A DNA stretch of 64,000 bases from Liolophura sinensis (Eukaryota > Mollusca > Polyplacophora > Chitonida > Chitonidae), in the NCBI RefSeq assembly GCF_032854445.1, contig NC_088306.1, forward strand, positions 21,921,764 through 21,985,763, in the 5' to 3' direction. The notes under the pieces were generated by a model. That model did no database searches. It saw only the letters and a program-made list of their open reading frames with translations, and was not told the origin of the DNA. The position numbers and the translations under genes are program-made. This document shows, one piece after another, positions 10,201 through 56,300 of the stretch; within the stretch, counting starts at the first letter, position 1; the number at the start of each line of letters is the position of its first letter.

Positions 10201-13200
10201 TATGAGTTCAGACTGAAGTACAAATTTTTTTCCAGCATAACACACACCAATTTGTAGACTGTTTCCTGGAAAAAAATAAATTCGTCCTCATTTAACACTG
10301 CCACTAGTTCTAGGATTTTGGAGGTTACTTCTTTGAACCTAGCTTTTTCTGGCTCACTGGGAGAAAGGCTGATCAATTTTGTACTTCATGTAAGCACATA
10401 TGAAATTGCTCAGTATTTTAAACTGTCTAATCTTTTACAGGGATGACCTTCATACATCTTGACTTAAATACAACACATATATACGCTTTCACACATGTGT
10501 ATGAGATCATTATTAAATACTTGATGTGATGTTCAGGAAGTCTTCTGTAAATCTTATACAGAAGATTTTCATATTAATCATATTATCGCACAATGACATT
10601 GCATTTCTTAAACTCATTTCACGTACATGTAGGGTATTGGCCTTTCTTGAAACGTGCAGTATTTTAACAATATTATGTGGCATAGTTAAGAGAACAGATG
10701 ATTTGCCTAATTTTGAGTTAATTGGCTACTACATACAGTAATCTTGATTGTTGTGTTTTCTTTACAGTTACTGGCCACCCTCCAAGTGTGCCGCGATTTT
10801 AGGTCAGGCCAGTGCCAAAGGCCTCAGTGCAAGTACGTACATTTATTGGATGGTAAGTGTCAATCAAAGTTGTTGTTTCACACTCTGGGTTCAGTATACC
10901 CATAGCATAGCTTGCCGAGTGGCTCACGGCACTTTCACAGGTACATTTGCCTCTGTGTGACGACCAGGTTGTTTGATTTAGTTCACTTTCAGCTGACTTT
11001 TCTCTACTATACATCTACATGAAGATCTCTACTATACTTATACATGAAGGTCCCTACTATACATATACATGAATGTCTCTACTATACATATACATGAATG
11101 TCTCCACTATACATATACATGAATGTCTCTACTGAATGTCTCTACTATACATATACATGAATGTCTCTACTATACATTTACACGAAGGTCTCTACTATAC
11201 ATCTACATGAAGATCTCTACTATACTTATACATGAAGGTCTCTACTATACATATACATGAATGTCTCTACTATACATATACATGAATGTCTCTACTATAC
11301 ATATACATGAATGTCTCTACTGAATGTCTCTACTATACATATACATGAATGTCTCTACTATACATCTACATGAATGTCTACTATACATCTACATGAAGAT
11401 CTCTACTATACTTATACATGAAGGTCCCTACTATACATATACATGAAGGTCTCTACTATACTTATACATGAAGGTCTCTACTATACATATACATGAATGT
11501 CTCTACTATACATCTACATGAAGGTCTCTACTATACATATACATGAAGGTCTCTACTATACATATACATGAAGGTCCCTACTATACATATACATGAATGT
11601 CTCTACTATACATATACATGAATGTCTCTACTGAATGTCTCTACTATACATATACATGAATGTCTCTACTATACATCTACATGAAGATCTCTACTATACT
11701 TATACATGAAGGTCTCTACTATACATATACATGAAGGTCTCTACTATACTTATACATGAAGGTCTCTACTATACATATACATGAATGTCTCTACTATACA
11801 TATACATGAAGGTGTCTACTATACATATACATGAAGATCTCTACTATACATCTACATGAATGTCTCTACTATACATCTACATGAAGATCTCTACTATACT
11901 TCTACATGAATGTCTCTACTATACATCTACATGAAGGTCTCTACTATACATATACATGAATGTCTCTACTATACATATACATGAAGGTCTCTACTATACA
12001 TATACATGAAGATCTCTACTATACATCTACATGAAGATCTCTACTATACATCTACATGAATGTCTCTACTATACATCTACATGAAGGTCTCTACTATACA
12101 TATACATGAATGTCTCTACTATACCTCTATATGAAGGTCTCTACTATACATATACATGAAGGTCTCTACTATACTTATACATGAAGGTCTCTACTATACA
12201 TATACATGAAGATCTCTACTATACATCTACATGAATGTCTCTACTATACATCTACATGAAGGTCTCTACTATACATATACATGAATGTCTCTACTATACA
12301 TATACATGAATGTCTCTACTATACATCTACATGAATGTCTCTACTATGCATCTACATGAAGGTCTCTACTATACATATACATGAATGTCTCTACTATACA
12401 TATACATGAATGTCTCTACTATACATATACATGAAGGTCTCTACTATACATATACATGAAGGTCTCTACTATACATATACATGAAGGTCTCTACTATACA
12501 TCTACATGAATGTCTCCACTATACATATACATGAAGGTCTCTACTATACATCTACATGAAGGTCTCTACTATACTTATACATGAAGGTCTCTACTATACA
12601 TATACATGAAGGTCTCTACTATACATATACATGAAGGTCTCTACTATACTTATACATGAAGGTGTCTACTATACATATACATGAATGTCTCTACTGTACA
12701 TCTACATGAATGTCTCTACTATACATCTACATGAAGATCTCTACTATACATCTACATGAATGTCTCTACTATACATATACATGAATGTCTCTACTATACA
12801 TATACATGAAGGTCTCTACTATACATATACATGAAGGTCTCTACTATACATATACATGAAGATCTCTACTATACATATACATGAATGTCTCTACCATACA
12901 TATACATGAAGGTCTCTACTATACATATACACGTACATGCATGCACATGCAGGTTTGTTTGATTTTAACAAACTGTGGCTCTCATTTCCTCCACCCCCAA
13001 AACTCGAGATCCATTGTGAAGTGGAAAATTCCATGGGCAAAATTGAGGGCATAAATCTCTTAAATTTGCCAAATAATATTAATTTGTAGTTGAAATGTAG
13101 TAACTCCTACCTGGTGTTTGGCTTAAGTGTGGGGAGACTTGCCGGCTTATTTGGCTAAACACAGCTCTCGCCACAGCATCTTGAATGTTGAGATTTCTGG

Positions 13201-15407
13201 GACTTGGACTTTAAATCAGGATGTTTTTCTGCTTCCTGACAGGGGTTTACTCGTAAAAGAAAAATTCAGGATTGCAGCATTTAACACCTTAGGAATAAAA
13301 TCTCCCCCACCACCAATTGAGTATTCCCGGGCCCAACAGTTGCCAAAGTTCATGCCGATATATCACACGGTAGCTGTCTAGAAACCACATTGTGCAACTG
13401 TACCACCAATTGAGTATTCCCAGGCCCAACAGTTGCCAATGTTCATGCCGATATATCACACGGTAGCTGTCTAGAAACCACATTGTGCAACTGTACCACC
13501 AATTGAGTATTCCCAGGCCCAACAGTTGCCAATGTTCATGCCGATATATCACACGGTAGCTGTCTAGAAACCACATTGTGCAACTGTACCACCAATTGAG
13601 TATTCCCAGGCCCAACAGTTGCCAATGTTCATGCCGATATATCACACGGTAGCTGTCTAGAAACCACATTGTGCAACTGTACCACCAATTGATGGAGTTC
13701 TGGGCCTGCTTATACCATGGCATCTAATTGTTTATAGTGTTAAGATGGCTCTGTGCAGGTGGACCCAAACCTGGGTTGTGGCCAAGGGCTGAAACCTTTG
13801 AACTGTTTTTAATCTGACAATGCCAAAAGGTCTTAATGGATTTTGTCAAGTCATGACAAACTGAGGCTGTGAGTTTTTCTCCAGTTACACCCGTAGGGAC
13901 TGTGTGTGTGTATGTGTGTGTGTGTGTTGTGTTGTGAGATCAAGCAGATGACATTTGTGAAACCACTCAGAATATGTGGATATCATTCTGCGTCACTATC
14001 AAGTCAAAACGGCTGCGGCCTTGCTCAGAATAGACGCACGTAATTCAGATTCTAGAGAGAATGGCTCCCATGCTGAGCAAACCTGGTATTGCCAGCTCAG
14101 TCAAGCGTTCTAAAGTTTTCCTCTTGTGAACCTCTCAGCCACCACTCAGAATTGTTTCCGCCGTGCCAGAAGCCATTTTTTTGTGCACCCCCTGAATTTT
14201 CCTCCTCTTTACTCCTGGTCCAATTCTTCCTGGCTATTCTGGGATGTTAACCCCTTCATTCCCATAATTCCCTCTAGTGTAGAGATATTTCCTGGTTATT
14301 CTACAGTTCCACATACATGGTAAAGATTCTGTTTGTTTTGCTGATAGTCACCACATGGCCTGTGTTTCCCCCCAGCTGACTGATACAGGAGCTATGTTTG
14401 TACAGTGCTGTATCCCCTGTTTGCCACACAGCTCATTATAATGCCTGTTGTTGTTGTAACAAACAAAGCCCCTGTTGACTCACGAGGCATTTTGAAAATT
14501 CAAACTGTTCTTTTGGAAACGCCCTGTTTTGCATGTGCGCATCCTATTTTTCTGTGGACAGCTAAGTGGTGTGTTTTCACATATAAACATCTTGATCTAT
14601 TTCCAAGGAGTGTTGCCAACAGTTGGCTTAACCTGCCTTGTGTCAGGCGCCAAACTGTAACTAAGACACTGTTCATCTTCAGAAAAGTTTTGCATGTTTT
14701 CCATCATGTTTGTGTAAACACATAAAATTTATCATTACCAAAGTTGAATGACTGCAGTTTTTGTATGGTTTACATTTGTATAGTAATTTGTGTAGTAATC
14801 GTACTGGAGACTGGTTCAAAGTGTGCAAAAATCATAAATACTTGTACACGGGAGATACAAGGACATATATGCCAGTAATTCAGTTGTGATTGTTACCCTG
14901 AAAGTCTGTCAGGCACCTGCCATTGGGCAGTGTTATTTCCCCAGATTTCCCCTGTTCCCTTCACTCCTAAATGTGACCTTTGCCAAATGTGTGAAATGTT
15001 AAGTATTTCATTAAACAGCAGTAGAATAAAGTAGGTACAGCAGTCATGATGGAAATCTTGATATGCTTTCACCTTTAAGGACACATCTGAAAACTCAGCT
15101 TGAGTGTCATGAAATTAAACATGCTGTGGTATCGTGAAAATGATGAAGTTGGAAGATTGCAGCTTGAGACTGCACATTAAATTTTGTTGTTTTTATTCGT
15201 GTTTTTGAAAGAATTATTATATTGATGTTGGCTTAACATCAGCTTGCAGCCTTATGAAGAATGTTTCGTTTTTTTTTTCTGTTCACAGATCAAGTCGATG
15301 TGAGCGATGGCAAAGTGACTGTTTGTCGAGATGCTATAAAAGGAAGATGTAAACGTCACATGTGTCGCTATTATCATATCCCTCTCGTGCCATTGGCTCT
15401 TTGTTGA
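974..15407 (+). CDS. MBNL: Muscleblind-like splicing regulator, 3' part (five exons)
   Basis: Muscleblind proteins are CCCH zinc-finger RNA-binding proteins that bind YGCY-type motifs and control alternative splicing, polyadenylation and RNA localisation. The exons are 974-1216, 5088-5241, 8009-8130, 10768-10852 and 15289-15407; they join without a frame break to 240 codons plus TGA. Residues 1-81 carry the family's ZnF3-4 pair (CX7CX6CX3H then CX7CX4CX3H, with [11 protein letters not shown] and [14 protein letters not shown]). Residues 82-173 are the linker, with the family motif [13 protein letters not shown]. Residues 174-240 hold another CCCH pair (both CX7CX4CX3H) ending PLVPLALC. Fingers 1-2 and the start are off-window. 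The extra C-terminal pair is not in vertebrate MBNL1-3, which have four fingers. Exons were placed by splice consensus, phase and family similarity, not transcript data; alternative exons are expected in this family. Confidence 0.9.
1890..2082 (+). CDS. Possible alternative 3'-terminal MBNL exon
   Basis: After a weak acceptor (tcgcaAAG near 1889) a phase-0 frame of about 63 codons runs to a TGA at 2080-2082. It would splice directly onto the phase-0 end of the ZnF3-4 exon. The composition looks coding: less T-rich than its surroundings, with a basic segment ([14 protein letters not shown]) and then a proline/serine-rich acidic end. Muscleblind genes are known for alternative C-termini, and a basic KR-rich segment follows ZnF4 in vertebrate MBNL1. 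I find no direct sequence match, and the polypyrimidine tract is interrupted by purines. It could be a chance ORF. Confidence 0.3.
2691..2758 (-). promoter_or_regulatory. Cluster of AGGTCA nuclear-receptor-like half-sites
   Basis: Read on the minus strand, AGGTCA occurs five times in 60 bases, several as TCAAGGTCA, plus one AGGTCG. The spacings include direct repeats with 0 and 1 base between. AGGTCA is the nuclear-receptor half-site, and TCAAGGTCA is the ERR/FTZ-F1 extended form. It may equally be a short degenerate tandem repeat; a related run is at 18240-18460. Confidence 0.3.
5088..5241 (+). CDS. MBNL: MBNL linker exon with [13 protein letters not shown]
   Basis: The exon is 154 bases between gcccacAG and ACTT|gtaagt, in phase 0 and out phase 1. 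It encodes [19 protein letters not shown] and then [19 protein letters not shown]. The latter matches the conserved block after ZnF4 in vertebrate MBNL (QYQQALANMQLQQ), which identifies the gene independently of the fingers. Confidence 0.93.
5549..5767. mobile_element. Inverted-repeat element, family B (diverged copy)
   Basis: The left end (acttCCACAAAGtcatttct) and the reverse complement of the right end (ctgattCCACAAAGccct) are similar. The right end also matches the ends of the copies at 19666-19884 and 33162-33382. The length, about 220 bases, is the same. It has no coding capacity, so it is a MITE-like non-autonomous element. The left boundary is approximate. Confidence 0.5.
6408..6675 (+). 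mobile_element. RUDI/V-SINE-like element, head-truncated
   Basis: This stretch shares the SINE body found many times in the window: the purine-rich run before gtcgtgggtttcccc, the segment ccaccataatgctgg, and an AATAAA-repeat tail. The ccaccataatgctg segment occurs twice (about 6485 and 6598), so the tail end is partly duplicated or two copies are nested. The tRNA-like head is missing. Confidence 0.7.
7986..7999. promoter_or_regulatory. Palindromic X-box (RFX-type) sequence
   Basis: GTTTCCATGGTAAC matches the RFX X-box consensus of two inverted half-sites. It lies nine bases before the splice acceptor of the next MBNL exon, so it also occupies the polypyrimidine-tract position. A functional role is inference. 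Confidence 0.35.
8009..8130 (+). CDS. MBNL: MBNL linker exon (Ala/Val/Thr-rich)
   Basis: The exon is 122 bases, in phase 1 and out phase 0, ending GACAAG|gtagtt. It encodes [20 protein letters not shown] and then [19 protein letters not shown]. The Ala/Val/Thr-rich part resembles the low-complexity region after the YQQAL block in vertebrate MBNL. The acceptor is a tandem CAGTAG, so the exon may start at 8009 (Leu-Gly-Ser) or 8012 (Cys-Ser). Confidence 0.8.
8131..10767 (+). other. MBNL intron, 2.6 kb
   Basis: It holds a small element with similar inverted ends (about 8788-8941: left gggcctcttgcacaaaagt; right end, reverse-complemented, gggaccactttcacaaaac) and a tRNA-derived SINE (9593-9855). 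No exon is recognised. Confidence 0.6.
9593..9855 (+). mobile_element. tRNA-derived SINE, plus orientation (family D)
   Basis: The head has A-box-like TGGCTCAGATGG and B-box-like GGTTCAAATCC with tRNA-like spacing (about 9603-9682). The tail, with ggttggtggttcactc and tttccttcccctcc, matches the 3' parts of copies near 22450, 25600, 60575 and 62795. No clear target-site duplication is seen. Confidence 0.65.
10768..10852 (+). CDS. MBNL: MBNL exon: extra CCCH finger (ZnF5)
   Basis: The exon is 85 bases between tctttacAG and GATG|gtaagt, in phase 0 and out phase 1. It encodes [20 protein letters not shown] and then CKYVHLLD, a CX7CX4CX3H finger. Unlike the first finger of each vertebrate MBNL pair (CX7CX6CX3H) it lacks two residues between the second and third cysteine. 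Confidence 0.9.
11015..12930. repeat. 25-base minisatellite, about 75 copies
   Basis: The unit is tctctactatacatatacat plus gaagg or gaatg. Copies vary mainly at three places: tatac/tctac, gaatg/gaagg/gaaga, and cat/ctt. A shortened unit (tctctactgaatg) recurs at about 11127, 11318 and 11629, showing that blocks of several units were duplicated together. The array lies inside the intron between the exons for the last two zinc fingers. Confidence 0.95.
13312..13690. repeat. 93-base tandem repeat, four copies
   Basis: The start accaattgagtattccc recurs at 13312, 13405, 13498 and 13591 with a stub at 13684, an exact 93-base period and near-identical copies. Since 93 is 31 codons, the array is open on the minus strand as a four-fold 31-residue repeat. 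There is no sign that it is translated. Confidence 0.95.
15289..15407 (+). CDS. MBNL: MBNL terminal coding exon: extra CCCH finger (ZnF6)
   Basis: The exon is 119 bases after gttcacAG, in phase 1, ending at TGA (15405-15407). It encodes [20 protein letters not shown] and then [19 protein letters not shown]. The finger is CX7CX4CX3[16 protein letters not shown] mirrors the second finger of the other pairs ([12 protein letters not shown] in this gene), so ZnF5-6 is a tandem pair like ZnF1-2 and ZnF3-4. Confidence 0.92.
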
Positions 15408-38234: not shown

Positions 38235-41200
38235 CTACATCAAACAAACCACATCAACATTATTAAGAAACAAGCATTCTGAAAATATTGCTTTCGCAAC
38301 ATATATATCCTACAGATCTCCAGACTTGACCCATCAGAATAATATCTCTGTGTATATGCATGCCAAATTCCACAACAGAACAACAATAGGTGCAATTTTG
38401 CCACAAACCGACAAAATGGCCCAAAAAACTTGAAATTGGTCTGAAACCCATCATAGTGAAGCCATGTCAGTGTCAATTCAATATGGAAAAAGTCCGGAAA
38501 GCTGTTTCTTGATAAACTGACAGACAAGAGATAAATTCTCGAACTAGTACTGGGCCCATAACAAGGTGTTCAGCCCAACACAATTTAAGGATTATAATAG
38601 AATATAAATTGAACATTCATACTTTTTACGTATCTGTACAAAAAGAAAATGAATATTAGAACAGATACAAAACTGTGTCCATGTAGTCCTGCTTATTAAC
38701 ATGAAGTACATGTACTTGTTCACCTGTAAAAACAGTGTCTCCTCTTTAATACTAAAATTCTTCAAACCTTTTCGCATGTTTGCAAGGTGTTTATTCAACC
38801 ATATTCTGAAGGTATTATTCTATGCTGACAGATAAAATTATCGTTTTTTTCATGCCCTGAAATTGGCCAATGCAACCAATGTAGTTTTGTCTCCAAAATC
38901 AAATGGAAAATGTGTATAAATTGCACTGAAAATGACTCTTTTCATATGTGAAAAGGTGAAGGAATTAAAACAACTAAATTAATCCCATGACTGGACACAT
39001 ACCTGGCCATTTAATAGTTCAAAGCTGAACTCAGGTTTTACTGTTAACATGCACAAACTATTTTGGAAAACAAAAAATGAGTTTATTCATTGAACCCGCT
39101 ACAGTGACATGCAGAGGAAATTCTGCTTTAGCTGGGAACTAACATGTCACGTGTGGAGATATGAGATTAAATCTCTGTCTCACCACTGCGGTAAAGCCTT
39201 CAACAACAACAAACGTAAATAAAGGATACGTGAAAAGGTACCATAAAATGGAGAGTGAAAATTTTTCTCCTCTAATGCTGAGGCATATGTTTTCATGCAT
39301 ATGTATGTTTTCCGCCAATTGTCGGAAAAGCCTAGCGCCCCAAATATGGGCTCTGACCCTCAAAAACAAAGTTGTTTTGACAGCTATATTTATTGGCATC
39401 ATCACATCAGACTATTTGAGTTTCTTAGCTGACAAAGACTGGGGAGTGAGGAAAACTCTCATTTAAAGCCACACAACAAGCTCAGAAGCTTTTTTCGTAA
39501 TTTCATGTGTTATGCCACATCGTGAACTCATCGTGAATTACGAAACGAAAACCTAGTGTTTCATGTATCCTTAAGCCTGATGATCATGTGACATACCCCT
39601 TCACTGTATTGCAGGAACCTCTTATTGGTCTCTCTCTTGTCAAAGTTCTCCAGGTAGCGTGCTCTAAAGCCAAGCACAGTGTCCACATGTGTTTTGTGTT
39701 TGACCGCCAGCTCGAGTGCTCTGAAACAGTAACAGTAACGAGATGGAGGAGTTTTAGCCAAACCCAGCTGGTCTGATATTCAAGTCACCCACCTGTCCCA
39801 GTTGTACAGTTGTACATTCAGTAGAATTTCCCTCAACACCAGTCACATTCAGTCACCCACCTGTCCCAGTTGTACAGTTGTACATTCAGTAGGCTGGCTC
39901 TACACACCAGTTACATTCAGTCACCCACCTGTCCCAGTTGTACAATCAGTAGGGTTTCCCTAAAGAAACCAGTCACATTCAGTCACCCACCTGTCCCAGT
40001 TGTACCGTTGTACATTCAGTAGGTTTGCTCTACACACCAGTTACATTCAGTCACCCACCTGTCCCAGTTGTACAATCAGTAGGATTGCCCCAAACACCAG
40101 TCACATTCACATCACACATTGACTTTCAGTCATCCACCTGTCCCAGTTGTACAATTGTACATTTAGTAGGATTGCTCTAAACACCAGTCACATTCACAGC
40201 ACACACTGACCTTTGGTCACCCACCTGTCCTAGCTGTACAGATGTACATTAAGTAGGATTGCCCCAAACACCAGTCACATTCACACCACACATTAACCTT
40301 CAGTCACCCACCTGTTCCAGTTGTACAACTGTACATTCAGTAAGATTGCTCTAAACACCAGTCACATTCACAGCACACACTGACCTTTGGTCACCCACCT
40401 GTCCTAGCTGTACAGCTGTACATTAAGTAGGATTGCCCCAAACACCAGTCACATTCATATCGCACATTAACCTGCAGTCACCCACCTGTTCCAGTTGTAC
40501 AACTGTACATTCAGTAAGATTGCTCTAAACACCAGTCACATTCACAGCACACACTGACCTTTGGTCACCCACCTGTCCTAGCTGTACAGCTGTACATTAA
40601 GTAGGATTGCCCCAAACACCAGTCACATTCATATCGCACATTAACCTGCAGTCACCCACCTGTCCTACCTGTTCCAGTTGTACATTCAGTAGGCTTGCTC
40701 TAAACACCAGTCACATCCAGTCACCCACCTGTTCCAGTTGTACATTCAGTAGAATTGCCCTAAACACCTGTCACCCACCTGTCCCAGTTGTACATACAGT
40801 AGGTTTTCCCTAAACACCAGTCACATTCACATCACACATTAACCTTCAGTCACCCACCTGTCCCAGTTGTACAGTTGTACATTCAGTAGAATTGCCCTAA
40901 ACACCAGCCCAGCCTGTAAAAGGATAGCCTCAGCATCCAGAGGGTTCCCACACAGCAGAGCCATCTCTGCATTCCTAGCCTCCTTCACAGGTATTTCCTT
41001 GATATTGATGATATACTGCACTTTGCTGGCCTGAGGAAATGATAATAAATAATAGTTATAGAACAGAAATTATTAATAAACAAATGCTGTTGAATTCAAA
41101 GTTCTAGGTGATAGGATACAGAAATATATGGTGTCACTAACCTCTGTATCACACTTGTTTCAAGATAGTTATAACAGTATTGGAAGTTAAATTAATTTTT

Positions 41201-44200
41201 AAAAATGGTACCTTGTAGTAGTAAGGTCTAATAAGCACTGATGTGAATAGTTATTCACTGCTTGTAAGAGGACTCTAACAAACAAACAAGCCGTTCCCAT
41301 CTGGCATGGTACATGTAGCTCTCTAGGGTGGAGGGACCAGACAAACTAAGTTGTGAGTTCAAGTCTCACTTGAGCCAGTCTTTTCACTGGTCTCGAGACA
41401 GTTATTTCACTGTCGGAAATTCAATATACACTGATGTATTCCCTGATGATGAGGGCAACAGCTTGATATACTATGATGCCTTTTGGACACCTGGGCTGCT
41501 ATGGCCTAGTGGCTAGCATGCTGGCTACCTCTCCGGGCCATACGTGGTAAGGTCTGTAAGCAGCGTGCGGATGGTTGTGGGTTTCCCCCGGGCTGTGCCA
41601 GCATTCTTCCCGTCATAATGCTGGTTGTCGTCTTAAAAGTGAAATATTCTTAAGTACGATGTAGAAAAACAAACAAATAAACCACAAAAAAAATATCTGA
41701 TACCTAAGCTCAAAAAGTTTCAGTTCACAAAGCAAAAGTTGAATTGCTTACAATGGAATGCATCCTAAATGAATAAACTCACAACAGAACCTCCCCCCAT
41801 TTAGTAATGGTAAATGTGGCAAAAAAAAAAAAAAAAATAAATAAAAAACAGAAGAAAAGAACATTCTGGGCTTTTCTCACAACATTCTGGGCACAGAGCA
41901 GTGACTGTGGCATTGATTTTTTTTTTTTTTTTTTTTTTTTTTGATTGGTGTTTTACGCCGTACTCAAGAATATTTCACTTATACGACAGCAGCCAGCATT
42001 ATGGTGGGTGGAAACCGGGCACAGCCCGGGGGAAACCCACGACCATCCGCAGGTTGCTGGCCAACCTTCCCACTTACAGCCGGAGAGGAAGCCAGCATAA
42101 GCTGGACTTGAACTCACAGCGACCGCATTGGTGAGAGGCTCCTGGGTCATTACGCTGCGCTAGGGCGCTAACCGACTGAGCCACGGAGGCCCCCTGTGGC
42201 ATTGAAAGTTGGATTCAAACTCGTAGTCGTTTTCGTATGACTGAAAAATTGTTAAGTACGATGTTAAACCCCAAGCACATGTACTCAAACTCGAAGACTC
42301 TGCCAGTTATTCCCCTGCCCTCTGTCTTACCTCACATATAGCAGCATAAGCAACCTCTGCTGTGGCCAGGTCTTTAGCATATGAAGCCATGGCAGCCAGG
42401 CACGCCCACAACACATCATCCTGGTGATCAAAAACTTAACAGTTAGGAATTAAATTGATGTATTTGATGAACGTTTCATACACCAGACAAAATGACTTTC
42501 ATTCCAGTCTGTGTGCTAGCAAAAAAAAGGTTAATAAACATTAACTTGATTTACACATGTTTGCAAACAATAGTTTACAAACAGAACAGGAACCTCCTGC
42601 AGTTTCATGGCTTCCAAACAGTCTTCACAACTTGTTTTCAGCTTCTGCTAGAGTGCTGATCAGTTTTGGGACAACAATGTTTGTAAAAGTCATGAATAAA
42701 TGGTGAGCTTTCTGTGGTACTGTTTTTTTTTTACAGGGTACTTTGTTCGGATGACCTTTTCCTTTATGACATTTATTTACCTCTAATAATGCACTTTTGG
42801 GTCAAAAATAACATCGTTCTCATGAAGAAGGTTTGAAGGAAGTCACAAAAAGTCGCCACAGTGCAGGAAAAGTACTCATTACAATTCAAAATGTTGTTGG
42901 AAGACCAAATAACCTTTTCCTATTAACCGTGTGAAATTTGGTCACCTTTGTTTTTAGATTAGTATGTACTTACAATACTTTCGTCGTCATATGACTGAAA
43001 AATTGTTGAGAACGACGTTAAACCCCAAGCACTCACTCACTCACTTACAATACTAAAAATATGTGGTGTCTGGATGCACCATACAATATGCTTTCTATTT
43101 CTTAATTACTAGTAATTGATTTTTTGCAGTGCCACCTACTCAAAAATTAATACATTACTACATCTAAAACAAATGGAAGTACTTTCCCTTTGTCTATCTA
43201 CATGCAACAGACAAGTGAGCCATGCCTAAAACTGTTTCAAAATTTGGGCTTTACCATTTTCCTACACAAAACGGTAAATAAATTATAAAACATCCAATGA
43301 ATACTTTTGTGGAATTATGTAGGGTACTATATGTAATACTCTAACAACATGAACAAAACATATTACCCTAATTTCTCAGCCTTTACACATAGGAAAGAGC
43401 AACTTTCAGGGCAATTTACACACACACACTCATCAATTTGATTTTGAAGACAAACCTACATTGGTTGGATTGACCAGTGTCCTGTCTTTACAAAAAGTAT
43501 AATTTTATCAGTCAACACAGAAAAATGCAGTGAGAATATGCTTGAATAAAGACCTTACAAACATGTGAAAATGTTGAAGGATTGCAGTAAGCTGTGTCTG
43601 AGTTTGAAAAAAAATTCCGACAATAAATTTCTGCATGTACAATGTATATTCTCCAGTTGGCGTGTACATATATTCTTGAATTGGAACATATATTGCGTAA
43701 TTAACAAACCCTCTTTCCAGAAGTGGACACTTTCCATTACTGGACAATTAATAATTCACCATACAAGCCTACACAAATTACGTCTTCCCTCTCTAAAAAG
43801 CATTTCAATTGCCCTTTTATTTGATTTTTATCTTTATTCATCAGACTGGAATTAGAAGCAGGATGCTATCACTGAAACACTCAGCACTTAATAGCATGCA
43901 TAGCAGTAGAGCTACACATAATTACCAGACTCACTGAATGTAGATAGACTGACAAGGATGTACAGACGGGCACTTCTTAAAGGTGTCAAATTGCAAAATT
44001 AATCTTCCACCTTTTACAAGATGACTGCCACTTTCATGATAATTAAATATTAACAGTTCTATCACGCTCTCACTTTCTTTCTGTCCAAGTACACTCTTTA
44101 AAAAGAAACAGCAAAGCACCGTTTTCTGCTGACAGTAAAAGAACCAGTCCAAGTAAGCCGTTGCAATTTTCATGACTTTCTGTATATTTTGACACATTCT

Positions 44201-47300: not shown

Positions 47301-50300
47301 TACCTTATGCGTAATCTTCCCGTCTCCTACAGCTTTCCCAGTCAATGCCTCAAATAGGTATATCACTGCAACAACACAAGACACATCATAAATAATGTCA
47401 ACTGCATGAGCAAACAGACTACTGCAAGTCCTCAAACCTTTTCCATGTTTGTAGGGTGTTTATTTAACCAAATTCTGAGGGCATTATTCTGTGTAGACTG
47501 ATAAAATTATACTTTTTGTGAAGCCCTGAAACTGGCCAATCCAACCAATGTAGTTATGTCTCCAAACACAAATAAATATCATATGAATAAATTGCACTGA
47601 AAGTTGCTCTTTCATATACAAAAAGGTTGAGGAATAGGGTACACATGTGAATTTCATATACTTGCTGACAATGGTACGCCGTTAAAATTGTGAAGATATT
47701 ACATCATTTTTGTGACAACAAGCTTCAACAGCGTCATATCACAGTGAGTACACAATATATACGTCAGATGGAAATGCAGCACGCAACATACTTGGCGTAG
47801 AGAAACACAAATCTTATGACATGGAAACTCCACTTTACGTTGCATTTCAAGGCAGTGCAATGTGTTACACAAGGAAAATCCGTCGCCACATATGTCGCCG
47901 AACAATGTGTTACACAAGGAAAATCTGTCGCCACATATGTCGCCGAACAATGTGTTACACAAGGAAAATCTGTCGCCACATATGTCGCCGAACAATGTGT
48001 TACACAAGGAAAATCTGTCGCCACATATGTCGCCGAACAATGTGTTACACAAGGAAAATCTGTCGCCACATATGTCGCCGAACAATGTGTTACACAAGAA
48101 AAATCTGTCGCCACATATGTCGCCGAACTTCTGGAATGATTCATCCACAACACGCCTTCAAATGAAAAGATGTGAAAGGAGTCCTTATTGTTGACATTAA
48201 CTGTTAACTCTAAGGTTGGCAATCAACCGTAGAGAGGATCCTTATGTGGAACTACATACAAGGGGAAGCTGAAATGTTCTTGGCTATGTTCTATGTTTGT
48301 TAAAGGTGGAGAAAACATAAAAATGATGATGAAAGTTCAGATGAAAGAGCGCAAAAAGTTATTCCTAAATGTGGTCTTCAATATTTTTTCAAATTTTTCC
48401 TTAAAAAGAAAAAGGCACTTGAAAATAATTTTTGTATGGTGGGTATTTGGGACCACCTTTTGGTATTTAAAGTCTTTGTTTAATAATGTCATAAATGAGG
48501 ATGTAATACAGGTTTATTAAAAATTTTTGCACTGGAATTTGTTCTTTTCAGCTTACAAATGTATTAAACCTCAATTTGGATCATATTTATATTTTTAATA
48601 TCTTCATAAATATTATCATAATTTAGGTTAAATGCATGTTTCGAGATAAACAACAAATTTACATTCAAATAAATTTATTAGACAAGCATCACATCATTAT
48701 TTAGGACGTTGTTATGCAACAACGATAAATACCAAAAGCTGGTCCCAAATACCCACCATACAAAAATATTTTCAAATACCCTTTTCTCTTCAAAAAAAAA
48801 AAAAAATCCAAAAACTTAATAAAAGCTCATATTTGGAAATAAGTTTTGATGCTCTTTCATCTGATTTTGGCATCATTTTTTATGTTTCCTTCTCCTTTAA
48901 TGCTACTTGAGCACCTCCCTATCTACTGGCTTATACAATTGAATATAGTACCAGTCACTGAGATGATTACACTTTGAGTAACTGAACAAGAAACATCGCC
49001 CTGTCTGAACATCAGGCTGAGAATATTTCAGCCTTCCTTGGTTTGGTGAAACTCTGTGTAAGAAATAATAAATAAGAAAGATTTATGCTCACCTTTCTCA
49101 TCAGTTTTATCCCTGATGGCCACAGTGTCATTGCTGAGAGAGATAGTCTGAGCGTTGAGCGTGTTGGCACGGAGGGTTGGATATTTAGGGGTGGACACCA
49201 GACGGCCATCATATGTGTATACATAAACGCCTGCACCGTCCACCATCAGGAAGTGTCTACAAGTAGTGCCATGTACATTTGTATGCAAGAAAAGTATAAA
49301 CACATAGCACATCAGACAGACATCATATGTGTATACATAAACACCTGCACCATCCACCATCAAGAAGTGTCTAAAGGTAGTGTCATGTACATTTGTATGC
49401 AAGAAAAGTATAAACACATAGCACATCAGACAGACATCATATGTGTATACATAAACGCCTGCACCGTCCACCATCAGGAAGTGTCTAAAGGTAGTGTCAT
49501 GTACATTTGTATGCAAGAAAAGTATAAACACATAGCACATCAGACAGACATCATACGTGTATACATAAACGCCTGCACCGTCCACCATCAAGAAGCGTCT
49601 AAAGGTAGTGTCATGTACATTTGTATGCAAGAAAAGTATAAACACATAGCACATCAGACAGACATCATATGTGTATACATACACGCCTGCACCGTCCACC
49701 ATAAAGAAGTGTCTAAAGGTAGTGTCATGTACATTTGTATGCAAGAAAAGTATAAACACATAGCACATCAGACAGACATCATATGTGTATACATACACGC
49801 CTGCACCGTCCACCATAAAGAAGTGTCTAAAGGTAGTGTCATGTACATTTGTATGCAAGAAAAGTATAAACACATAGCACATCAGACAGACATCATATGT
49901 GTATACATACACGCCTGCACCGTCCACCATCAAGAAGTGTCTAAAGGTAGTGTCATGTACATTTGTATGCAAGAAAAGTATAAACACATAGCACATCAGA
50001 CAGACATCATATGTGTATACATACACGCCTGCACTGTCCACCATCAGGAAGTGTCTACAAGTAGTGTCATGTACATTTGTATGCAAGAAAAGTATAAACA
50101 CATAGCACATCAGGCGGATGTAATATGTGTATACATACACGCCTGCACTGTCCACCATAGGGAATGTTTACAACTATATGTTGTCATGTATGAAGTTTTG
50201 AAGCCTTTGGTATGACCAGACTTGGGTTTGATCCATGTATGTAGGCTAACTGACACAACAGGCAGCAAAAACGAGCACATGCATACACACAACCACTTTC

Positions 50301-53300
50301 GCAACAAACAGGTAGTGTTCACCACAGAATTACACTGTCCTGTGTTGATTATAGAAAAGTGTCCCAGTTTTACTCCCCTCGAGTATATTGGCTTTTGTCA
50401 CCGCACTAAAAAATATTTCACTTACACCGCGGCGCCAGCATTATGGTGGGAGGTAACTGGTCGAGCATGGGGGAAACCACAACCATCTGGTTCCCTATGT
50501 TATTTATTTATTTATTTGATTGGTGTTTTCTTGTACTCAAGAATATTTCACTTATACAATGGCGGGAGGCATTACTGTGGTAGGAAACTGGGCAAAGCCA
50601 AGGAAAAACCCATGACCATCCTCAGGTTGTTGCAAACCTTCCCGCATGACTGGAGAGGAATCTTTGTAGCATGTGGGTACAACTTACTTCTCTGCTTGCA
50701 GAATCAGTGTGACATTTCCTTCTCTCAGGTCAAAGATCATGGGTGTGTTCCAGTTACGAACTCTACAACAGGAAACATCAAATCAGGAATAGTTCAGAAG
50801 TTCTCTTCATGTAAGTGGAAACTATGTGTATTAAACATCTTGATTAATGTAATGTTGTACATTGATTTGATCCTTAAATATATACTGTACTGTAAGTCTC
50901 TAACCTTTCTGAATATGGTATTATTCTGTGTAGATAGACAAAATTACACTTTCAGTGATACCCGGAAATTGGCCGAGCCAAGCAATGTGGATATGAGACC
51001 AAAGGCAAGTTAAAAGGGTCCATGAAGTGCACTGAAAGTTGCTCCTTTGTATGCGAAAAGGTTGAGAAATTAGGTACATATTTTGAAAAAACAGTATTAA
51101 AATTGGAATGGGTTTGTGTGGTATGATGAGTGTCTACAGACTCTGAGGAAAAAAGTAGGCTTGGCCTGAATTAACCAAGTTATGCCTCTGTGGCTAATAA
51201 AACGGGTGTAGAATCGAGCCATAGAGACAATCAGGGTCTAGCGTAGACACTGTAATGTGATCCCTTACGAGTAGACATAGCACTGGGCTGACGTGGCTAC
51301 TATCAGGTGTCCAAATGACAGGGAGGTCTTGATGACACGATCCCTGAAGTCCAGCTTCTCCTCAGCATTATTCATGACATTCCGGGCCAGGATCCTCTTG
51401 TTTCCCGCCAGAGTCACCTCAAAGTTTTTCCACTCCAGACGCCTGAGGAAGAAATTGACAATAAAGCAAAGAGGGCTATTTCATTTTATTAAAGCTTATT
51501 GATTTTATTTTATTGGGGTGTTATGCCATACTCAAGAATATTTCACTTATATGACGGCAGCCAGCATTGGTGTGGAGGAAATCAGGGAGAGCCCTGCGGA
51601 AACCTACGACCATCCGCAGGTTGCTAGCAAATCTTCCCACAGATGGCCGGAGTGTAAGTGAACAGGGAGTCTCCTGGGTAAACACGGTGCTGGCATGCTA
51701 ACCCTCTCAACCAACACAGGCCCCTATTTGATTTATTAAAGCTTATTTATCAGACATAATGCAATGTGATATTTAATATTGAAAAATCAAGTATTTTTAG
51801 GGAGTTGTCCCAAAGTGAACTCATTTTTAAAGGAATTTCAAGATATCAAAAACATTGCAGCAAAACTTACACACTTTCACAGATTTCTAAGACAGTTGGG
51901 AAAATGTCTATCGCTTGACCTATCCATCAACTCAATATAATTCCTGAAACCTTGTCTTTTGGTGTCTGTTATCAGTTATCTATTATAGCAGTCACACCCA
52001 CCTCTCTACAATATTGGCAATGATGACCTGTCCGTTACCACAAGCCCCGCCCACTTGTGTACCATCACTAGACCAGGCCAGGGCAAATATACTGCCGGTC
52101 GTTGGTTTCTCTAATGCATAGGACCACTGAAAAACATGTAAGATCAACTGATGTCTTGGGTATAATGTCGTAATGTTGGGGCATTTCAAAGTGAATTAAT
52201 GTTCTCTCCTTAGGCTGGCTAAGTACACATAAGATCACACAGCTGCTGCTTCAGATTAATCAAACCAAGGAATTATGAGGCTGGGCTTCTTAAGAGCAAA
52301 GCTGGCATAAATTGCTGAATCCATCGCGTCCTCCATCTTTAACACCCTGTAATTTCTGCTAGGGGTGTGATGCCTCTCAGCCAATGAGGGTCGTTAAAAC
52401 TGCTGGCTTGTTGGTGTAAACTCGGAACCTACATTCAACATTCCGGTTTCCCGATCGTGAAGCAGAAGAGTTCAAGTGGAAGAGGTCTACCGGAAATGTA
52501 CGAACTGCACTTCGGCGGTTTCCGACGGCATTTCTCCTCCTAACACGGAAGACTTCAGGACTAGTTCTTAGGCAAAATGGAGTCGCCCACAGCAGATTTT
52601 GGCCCTGTCTTTATGTATAAATTATCAACTTGAGGTACATATTAGATTTTTTTATGGTATGCACCTGCGAGGAAATGCATGCTCTTTTCAATGGTATTTG
52701 ACTGATATTTAAATTTTCTTTTCCTTTAGGCACTGAGGTGGTAAACAAATGACCACATCAAGTGGCCCAGGGGAGACAACTGCCAAGTAGAAGACATGTT
52801 TCTCTTAAATTTCCTCTGCAATATGTGACGATGCAAAAACATTGTCACTTAATCAAGGCAATAAAACCATGTTGTAATTCTCAAAACAAAAAATTCCTAT
52901 GCATCATCCTTCAGAAAATATTCTTCATTTCACCCTATTTGGCTAGTGTTAGCATGTTTTAAATGTTGTATATTACAACAAACCAGTTCTCAATTCAAAA
53001 AGTGTTTCACTTTAATACTTAGTAATGTTTGTTAAATATTTTTGTTTAAATAAGTTTAAAATCCTTCAAGTACATGTAGTAACACAACATTTTATCAGGA
53101 GACCTCTTGAAGTCGTTTATTGGATTATTATTTTATGGATTATTATTAATATTCCTTAAGTTTTTATCTCAAAAACTGGTAAAGGTAGCAAAACCAAACT
53201 TTACATTTTTAATAATGAACACATGAAGCGTTTACCCATCATTTGATGCATTCATTCTAAGATTTAAAAGAAAACATTTAAACATCACGTTAAAGGCCAT

Positions 53301-56300
53301 TCTGTGCTGAATCCAAATATGGTCTCCATTATTTTTGGCATTTTTCTTCACAGCGATAAAAATGGAAATTAAGGCTGAATTATTATGGTGGACTTTTTGG
53401 ACCATAATAAAGCACTCTGACATCAAAGGCTTTTTTTTTTGTTTTGGCAGCTAACCTTGCTGTAACTGTTAGACTCTCACATTTAATACGGATACAGTTA
53501 TTCCACTATATATAGCAGAAATATAGCAATCAGTAGATGTGTAGCAGGTAAACTCAATCAGTGACATCACTGTGCTTCAGTTTGTTCAATACGGTTCAAA
53601 ATGTCCACCCTAGCACCTCACTATTTATTTCCATTTTGATCACTGGAATAAATGCCAAATTATAATGAAAACTATATTTGAAATCAAAATACCTTCTTAG
53701 ATGATGCACATTTTAGTTAAAATGTGATCTGAACAACAAAACTGGTTTCAAACCTGTGACTTTTGCCATAGATCCATGAGATATGAAACTTTGGCCAAAC
53801 AACACTTACCCCTGCCTTGTCACACAGCCTGAGTGTGTTGAAGGAGCCAATGGCAAACAGTTCCCCATCTGGCGTCCAGGCCACGGATGTTATGGGGTAC
53901 TCATGGGCTGAGCTAGTGTACAACACACGACCATATGTGTCCCAGACCTACATGAAACAACAACAACATGGGTAAAGAGACTTCCAATTTTTACTGTGAG
54001 AAGGAACAGACTTCCCTTTTTTTATAATAAGCAAAAAATTTACCTTAAAGATACCTTATAGATAGCTAATGGAATAATAATCCATCAAGGATATTTTGTT
54101 TCTATGTTCATAGAAAATTTTCTTCAACTTTTTAGTCTGTGAAATAGGAAGTTAAAATTCTTACATAAGCAAACATAACAAAATGCAGTGTGATAACTGG
54201 CTACTAACCTTGTACCTACAATCCTCTGCTCCAGACAGTATCAAGTTGTTACCTGGGTTCCAGTCTATGTTCAGAATCACACCTTCATGGGCTTTCCACT
54301 AGCAGAAGAAAATGTAACATAAGGAATGTACATGAAATGAAAGCATGAAGGACTTAATAATATTGGGGAACACTGATAAGTGAAAATGAAGGCTATATAT
54401 ACATGTACAGATATGTACCTGAATGAATGTGATTGGCAATAATGAATACCAAAATTTTTTAACCCATATGTAGGAAGAGTAAGAGAACAGGACTGACACC
54501 ATTTTAGTTTGGTACAATTGTGAAATGATGTCAGCACAAATTAGGCAGATAGGACCTGACAAAATACAATTTTGCTTGAATGATGTCAAAAACACTGTCA
54601 ACTGAGTGTGGTTTGGACTATATGTGAGGGCTGGTCAATGTGTTGTCTTCCTGCTTCATAACACCAGGCAAAATATTCGGAAAATATTGTTCTCATACCA
54701 TCCTCCAAAAAATGCAAACCAGGCGTTGATAATGATAATGTAAGAAAGTAATTCAGATTATCTCAACTCTTATAAAATTTTACGCTTGGCTTAACACACA
54801 AAGGCTTCAGAACTGGAGTAGCTCTTAGAGAGTGTGAAAGTACCACCATACATGACTCACCACAGTGGGTTTGGAGTTGGCCTGCAGAGGTTTGATCACC
54901 AACTGTCTTCCATTCGTGAACAGTACCTGATCTGAGTTAGGTCCCCAGGACACAGCATACACTGGCATACCTGGTGTAAAGAGGTAGACAAATATATGAA
55001 CAACACCTGAGTTAGGTCCCCAGGATACAGCATACACCAGCACACTTGGTGTAAAGAGGTAGACAAATATATGAACAGCACCTGAGTTAGGTGTCCAGGA
55101 TACAGCATACACCGGCATACCTGGTGTAAAGAGGTAGACAAATATATGAACAACACCTGAGTTAGGTGACCAGGATACAGCATACACCAGCACACTTGGT
55201 GTAAAGAGGTAGACAAATATATGAACAGCACCTGAGTTAGGTGGCCAGGATACAGCATACACCGGCATACCTGGTGTAAAGAGGTAGACAAATATATGAA
55301 CAACACCTGAGTTAGGTGGCCAGGATACAGCATACACCGGCATACCTGGTGTAAAGAGGTAGACAAATATATGAACAACACCTGAGTTAGGTGGCCAGGA
55401 TACAGCATACACCGGCATACCTGGTGTAAAGAGGTAGACAAATATATGAACAACACCTGAGTTAGGTGGCCAGGATACAGCATACACCGGCATACCTGGT
55501 GTAAAGAGGTAGACAAATATATGAACAACAGCTGAGTTAGGTGGCCAGGACACAGCATACACCGGCATACCTGGTGTAAAGAGGTAGACAAATATATGAA
55601 CAACAGCTGAGTTAGGTGGCCAGGACACAGCATACACTGGCATACCTGGTGTAAAGAGGTAGACAAATATATGAACAACGCCTGAGTTAGGTGGCCAGGA
55701 CACAGCATACACTGGCATACCTGGTGTAAAGAGGTAGACAAATATATGAACAACACCTGAGTTAGGTGGCCAGGACACAGCATACACTGGCATACCTGGT
55801 GTAAAGAGGTAGACAAATATATGAACAACACCTGAGTTAGGTGGCCACGACACAGCATACACTTGGTGTAAAGAGGTAGACAAATACATGAACAACACCT
55901 GATCTAAGTGTCTGTCTTCTCTTGGTTGAAACTCTTTAAACTCTTTAACATCACTTCCCACACAAGCTTATGAATACCGTGAAGAAATTCTTATTCTGAT
56001 AATCGCAGAATACTTACTTTATAACAGAAAGTCTAATTTTCATCTGCTAAATGAAAATATGCAGATCTGTGAACTCCTTTCGGACAAGTTGTTTTGATTA
56101 TGAGAAAAATGAAATATTACTAATAGGTATTTTAACTCACTATTCTGTGCCAGTGTGTTCCTTAGCATTCCACTTCTTGACCAGATTTTCACCTGGCCAT
56201 CCTCCCCAGCTGTAACACAAACAAACAGAACATAAACATAGACATCACACCTCCATCATAATTCAGTGAAAGAACTTCAACTCCATTTTTTTTATAGATT

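Follow-up and report, generated by a model that had tools for sequence, protein, structure and literature searches.

A tandem array in intron 4 of a chiton IFT80 gene repeats the end of the intron, the splice acceptor and the start of exon 5 as one unit, raising the question of whether the additional acceptors contribute to the protein or are discarded with the intron. We examined this array within the window, i.e., the whole stretch of 64,000 nucleotides of Liolophura sinensis DNA that was analysed; the species of the assembly was first published as Liolophura japonica and later corrected to L. sinensis (PMC12441733). With a probability of about 0.78, we consider the array to be an ordinary splice-junction minisatellite of the type called a 'mirage' in amphioxus, which is removed with intron 4 when exon 4 is spliced to position 54971 and which is without demonstrated function.

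IFT80 gene model

The minus strand of the window encodes IFT80. Exons were placed by tblastn with human IFT80 as the query; the exon numbering was taken from a preliminary description of this DNA, and our gene model begins at exon 2. Exons 2–19, joined at GT-AG sites, yielded one unbroken IFT80 reading frame that ended in a stop and included no array unit. When pieces of the gene were searched against the PDB, the best whole-sequence E-value was that of 2ymu, a 13-repeat WD40 protein, followed by the IFT80 structures 8bd7_I and 5n4a_A, which showed a strong single stretch across the exon 4/5 junction (i-Evalue 1.7e-14). This match, together with the continuous frame, confirmed the identity initially proposed for the gene. 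The following exons adjoin the arrays described below.

56141..56209, minus strand: IFT80 exon 4, donor ATA/GTGAGT (gene model)
54861..54970, minus strand: IFT80 exon 5, the real exon, 110 nt, donor GTG/GTGAGT (gene model and homology)
49093..49256, minus strand: IFT80 exon 11 (gene model)
40858..41030, minus strand: IFT80 exon 17 (gene model)

Exon 5 is joined to exon 4 in phase 1, and intron 4 measures 1170 nt, approximately 80% of which is array. Copies of a dispersed repeat (GTACTCAAGAATATTTCACTTATAC...), possibly a short interspersed element, were also seen in IFT80 introns at 41960-42059, 50533-50632 and 51528-51627 of the window.

Anatomy of the exon 5 array

The array and its acceptors were located as follows.

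54932..55898, minus strand: 3' splice-site array spanning the junction of IFT80 exon 5, 13 copies, 12 being 75 nt and one 67 nt long
54971 (real), 55121, 55271, 55346, 55421, 55496, 55571, 55646, 55721, 55796, minus strand: acceptors reading CAG
55045, 55195, 55862, minus strand: acceptors reading AAG

TRF returned a 75-nt period with 13.1 copies and 95% matches at 54932-55902, and splitting the array at the acceptor gave 13 acceptor copies, namely the real one at 54971 and 12 upstream. The two approaches agree with each other and with the twelvefold upstream repetition of a 75-base unit (intron end, acceptor and exon 5 start) that had been described. Eleven upstream units are 75 nt long, and the outermost is 67 nt long owing to an 8-nt deletion in its exon part. 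A unit consists of 36 nt of intron end and 39 nt of exon 5 start, equivalent to 25 codons; the innermost copy is the real junction, the exon copy of which is intact.

Nine of the 12 upstream acceptors read CAG/GTATGC, as does the real site, so that full CAG units start with GTATGC and end with CAG. The remaining three read CAAG/TG. The preliminary description had counted two units as having lost the AG context; there are actually three (55862, 55195 and 55045), and each of these still has its AG, displaced by a single base. All 13 copies share an identical 23-nt stretch that reaches the splice site with the letters CACCA. Judged by eye, three central units are identical and the units close to either edge diverge. 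A genome-wide search of this assembly, which represents a single haplotype, with one 75-nt unit gave at least 14 matches, and those listed all lay within the array or its edge.

The edge on the intron side reads ...GATCAG/GTGTTG (55898) and that on the exon side ...ACTCAG/ATCAGG (54932). Because TCAG precedes both edges, the founding event was probably a single tandem duplication that joined two sites, each after TCAG. The pattern of the units suggests that the array then grew via unequal exchange or replication slippage and was partially homogenised.

Acceptor strength and reading frame

We scored splice sites using crude matrices built from the 17 sites of IFT80 alone. The real acceptor scored 0.13, the third weakest of the 17; its score was equalled by the nine upstream CAG sites, identical to it across the scored 25 nt, and slightly exceeded by the three CAAG sites (1.59). 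Simple scanning for the first AG would favour an upstream acceptor over 54971, which counts against removal of the array with the intron. Nevertheless, 54971 is probably the main site, since it is the sole acceptor that adjoins a complete 110-nt exon with a donor and since the conserved protein match crosses the joint of exons 4 and 5.

The mRNAs that would result from each upstream acceptor were then scripted (exons 2–18). It had been claimed that use of any upstream acceptor would add multiples of 25 residues. Ten of the 12 acceptors did keep the frame without a stop, whereas 55195 and 55045 broke it, with a stop after 233 or 183 residues (partial model from exon 2). Use of the outermost acceptor would add 891 nt, which is in frame, yet is not a multiple of 75.

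The unit was also correctly described as free of stops in the exon frame over its 25 codons, but two of the three minus-strand frames of the array lack stops, the exon frame being one of them. Furthermore, among the 11 full upstream units, seven of the 10 variable columns fell at codon positions 1–2, with no bias to silent sites. Given the second open frame and this variation, the open frame of the array is not evidence of coding, and nothing shows selection on the peptide that the array would add.

Other junction arrays in IFT80

Two further arrays cross splice junctions of the same gene.

49195..50158, minus strand: second 3' splice-site array, 114 nt x 8.5, comprising an intron end, TAG/ACACTTC and the start of exon 11
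39778..40857, minus strand: 5' splice-site array of 87-nt and odd-length units, comprising the end of exon 17 and CAG/GTGGGTGAC

A pattern search of the exon 11 array recovered seven upstream acceptors, all at distances of 3n from the real one, and only the exon frame was free of stops. In the exon 17 array, the real donor is one of 16 donor-like copies, 14 of which read CAG/GTGGGT, and the array accounts for approximately 95% of intron 17; read-through past its first donor encounters a stop. The chance of frame neutrality, computed by hand, was approximately 0.24 and 0.10 for the two 3' splice-site arrays of IFT80. That both are frame-neutral counts against our preferred reading, since IFT80 may have been under some selection to avoid arrays that break the frame.

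Other tandem arrays were present in the window. One (47858-48128, 45 nt x 6, 99%) lies in IFT80 intron 11, clear of the exons, and is spanned by a minus-strand ORF of 152 residues. The top-scoring array of the window, at 11001-12931, has a 25/50-nt period and approximately 76 copies, with no recognised gene. Another, at 13309-13692 (93 nt x 4.1, 99%), has a minus-strand open frame of 144 residues, and a plus-strand ORF at 13127-13378 enters its left edge. Inspection of ORFs revealed no recognisable exon at the edges of the arrays between 11001 and 34924.

Junction arrays in dynein genes

A family search was used to sample other loci of the genome; the 90 AAA_6 matches listed were assigned, from their positions, to 18 dynein heavy-chain genes. 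We examined a 50-kb region at each of four of these genes (g1–g4) and 10-kb slices of two more (L037 and L038). Seven junction arrays were found in two of the four regions, which contain a DNAH10-like gene (g3) and a DNAH2-like gene (g4).

DNAH10-like gene: three 5' splice-site arrays, 34, 86 and 53 nt
DNAH2-like gene, L034:4121-4940: 5' splice-site array, 83 nt x 9.9, running straight into an N stretch
DNAH2-like gene: 5' splice-site array, irregular, 35–79 nt
DNAH2-like gene: 3' splice-site array, 91/92 nt, with stops
DNAH2-like gene, L034:7385-8835: 3' splice-site array, 66 nt x 22

No junction array was recognised in the 50-kb regions g1 and g2 or in the two 10-kb slices; the negative result in two of four dynein regions weighs against our preferred reading. 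With those of IFT80, the junction arrays total 10, four at 3' and six at 5' splice sites; therefore, they are not a device specific to IFT80. By inspection, the unit boundary reads AG/GT in four of the 10.

Frame neutrality did not extend to the dynein arrays. We considered the possibility that 3' splice-site arrays are selected to be 3n in length and free of stops, which fitted the first arrays (75, 114, an apparent 183 and 66 nt). It was refuted, since the apparent 183-nt unit proved to be a 91/92-nt unit with stops and the 66-nt units carry a stop, which lies just ahead of the acceptor in the exon frame in each of the last six. Only two of the 10 arrays, the 75-nt and 114-nt arrays of IFT80, are 3n and stop-free. 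Thus, the preliminary description of the exon 5 array as a frame-neutral set of competing acceptors is supported as to the intact acceptor copies, and neutrality as the point of the structure is not supported.

Several related features were noted in the sampled regions. An array of 24 nt x 5 in the DNAH10-like gene (L028:419-540) contains only a pyrimidine-rich intron end and stops before the acceptor AG of the coding exon; it was left out of the junction count because it repeats intron sequence alone. A probable 5' splice-site array with a 27-nt unit, AAAT/GTGAGTA, occurs at L039:8493-8937 on the minus strand, where an open frame close to kinase exons ends; it is without homology support and was likewise left out of the 10. 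In L037, a two-copy 68-nt repeat adjoins an open frame, and two divergent copies of one dynein AAA1 exon (1585-1698 and 2265-2372) lie approximately 680 nt apart, which are possible mutually exclusive alternative exons.

Enrichment of arrays at splice junctions

In tests that were all chosen post hoc, with the data already seen, three of the four arrays of IFT80 crossed a junction (P = 0.0076). For the dynein genes, we retained arrays with a period of at least 24 and a score of at least 150 within the conserved span of the four regions and dropped smaller ones; the automatic test placed five of 15 at junctions versus 2.84 expected (P = 0.13), an expectation that was raised because multiples (258 and 183) were used for two of the units. 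Adding two arrays assigned by eye, the exons of which match dyneins, gave seven of 15, or 10 of 19 with IFT80. At assumed chance rates of 0.15–0.30, these correspond to P values of 0.004 to 0.13 and 0.0001 to 0.03, respectively. TRF scores, compared post hoc as well, were higher for the 10 junction arrays than for the nine others (Mann-Whitney P = 0.002). The enrichment of tandem arrays at splice junctions is suggestive only.

Interpretation of the exon 5 array

As a splice-junction minisatellite, the array would normally lie inside intron 4 and be lost when exon 4 is spliced to 54971; its main effect would be to lengthen the intron from approximately 240 to 1170 nt. We propose that it is tolerated because the exon copy is kept and because splicing to a wrong acceptor would do little harm or could be put right: most of the upstream sites are in frame, and retained GTATGC...CAG units could leave as a GT-AG intron, which would restore the normal mRNA. 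In a rival proposal, the units serve as tandem zero-exon (dual 3'/5') splice sites; intron 4 would be taken out in steps, or retained units would leave as introns of 75n nt, so that the array would remove itself from the message. CAG/GTATGC, which nine of the 12 upstream acceptors carry, has a donor score of 7.27, the real donor of intron 4 reaching 7.26 in the same matrix, and TTCAT, a branch-site-like word, stands 27 nt ahead of the unit end. Owing to this native-like donor score and branch-like word, a run of CAG units is a potential GT-AG intron, the removal of which would restore the mRNA. A potato gene reportedly gained an intron from a duplication across an intron-exon boundary, according to the available part of that report (PMC4974935), and the proposal may be likened to intron gain by tandem duplication and to recursive splicing. 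However, the donor regenerated on joining to exon 4, ATA/GTATGC, reaches a score of only 2.43, the real donor having 5.87 in that matrix, an intron of 75 nt would be very short, and an AG/GT boundary in only four of the 10 arrays implies no general requirement for it. We regard self-erasing dual sites as unlikely.

It is more improbable still that the copies are true alternative acceptors, giving IFT80 isoforms in which 25-residue segments separate two strands of the propeller and copy number does the tuning. Nine of the 12 upstream acceptors do score as the real one and three score higher, 10 are in frame, and the exon frame is free of stops throughout the array. Against this, eight of the 10 junction arrays are not frame-neutral, the exon 5 array has its second open frame and varies without silent-site bias, and the insert would presumably put a hydrophobic segment, VVHIFVYLF, into a conserved WD propeller. 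By analogy, amphioxus mirages reportedly leave the mRNA unaltered, as stated in the available sections of the description (PMC3087553). An assembly artefact, with the array collapsed or expanded, appears very improbable. Tandem arrays are error-prone, and an N run terminates one of the junction arrays of the DNAH2-like gene; nevertheless, the HiFi reads of the L. sinensis assembly, given in the accessible part of its report as 8,347 bp on average at 14x (PMC11068029), far exceed 967 nt, the units carry ordered private differences, and similar arrays occur at other loci. Removal of the exon 5 array with intron 4 as an ordinary minisatellite accordingly remains our preferred reading.

Comparison with known systems

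The available portions of two reports describe mirages in amphioxus as tandem repeats across exon-intron boundaries in Adh3, TnC (troponin C) and the globins BflGb6 and BflGb9, and by analogy in PGBD5, with regular splicing reported as undisturbed (PMC3087553, PMC3902484). Mirage clusters vary in length (PMC3087553, same portion). Unit lengths are given there as 10–72 nt in Adh3 and 150–160 nt in the globins, and the units of BflGb6 are 81–100% alike (PMC3087553, PMC3902484). As far as these portions go, mirages and the chiton arrays share units that straddle an exon-intron boundary together with its splice signals, involvement of both 3' and 5' boundaries, and many copies that keep AG/GT. The 75-nt unit of exon 5 falls between the Adh3 and globin ranges, and the mirage feature of a homogenised centre with divergent edge units is present, by eye, in the exon 5 array. 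Unlike mirages, which are found in cephalochordates, the chiton arrays occur in a mollusc, reach approximately 22 copies and number three in one gene.

Recursive, or zero-exon, splice sites are juxtaposed 3' and 5' sites that are used stepwise. They resemble the putative dual sites of the exon 5 array in placing CAG/GT in an intron; in the chiton there would be nine such sites, 75 or 150 nt apart, within a short intron. The intron gain in potato RdRp, as presented in the available text (PMC4974935), has in common with the exon 5 array a duplication that crosses an intron-exon boundary and repeats that contain a donor, a branch-like word, a pyrimidine tract and an acceptor. Unlike those of potato RdRp, the copies at exon 5 stay inside an existing intron, where the duplicated sites would bound only a candidate new intron.

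We found no report of splice-junction minisatellites in molluscs in the literature searched, which leaves out most subscription journals. Neither 'minisatellite' nor 'tandem repeat' occurs in the main text of a study comparing chiton genomes (PMC12005716), and nothing comparable appears in the accessible part of a study of gastropod haemocyanin introns (PMC7931591). All reports of splice-junction minisatellites that we found are from lancelets, and the chiton shows them at several junctions in several genes. This wide occurrence is the interesting part, several arrays having appeared already in a small sample, and it suggests a recurrent route for intron growth and possible intron gain. It is possible, although doubtful, that chitons have, independently of lancelets, a process acting throughout the genome by which minisatellites expand with a preference for splice junctions, so that introns grow from either end. 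Arrays with an AG/GT boundary would then form self-erasing chains of spliceable mini-introns, a lasting supply from which new introns and alternative exons could be drawn. Identical tandem splice sites also provide natural tests of how the spliceosome chooses among equals.

Mitochondrial sequence in the assembly

The gene order of the mitochondrial contig is the one known from chitons, and an origin of this DNA in amphioxus, to which the mirage literature had pointed, was rejected. Contig C99 contains at least seven COX1 matches approximately 15.5 kb apart; it appears to be a mitochondrial genome concatemer, perhaps an assembly artefact. A single mitochondrial copy of 15,209 nt is present as contig C632.
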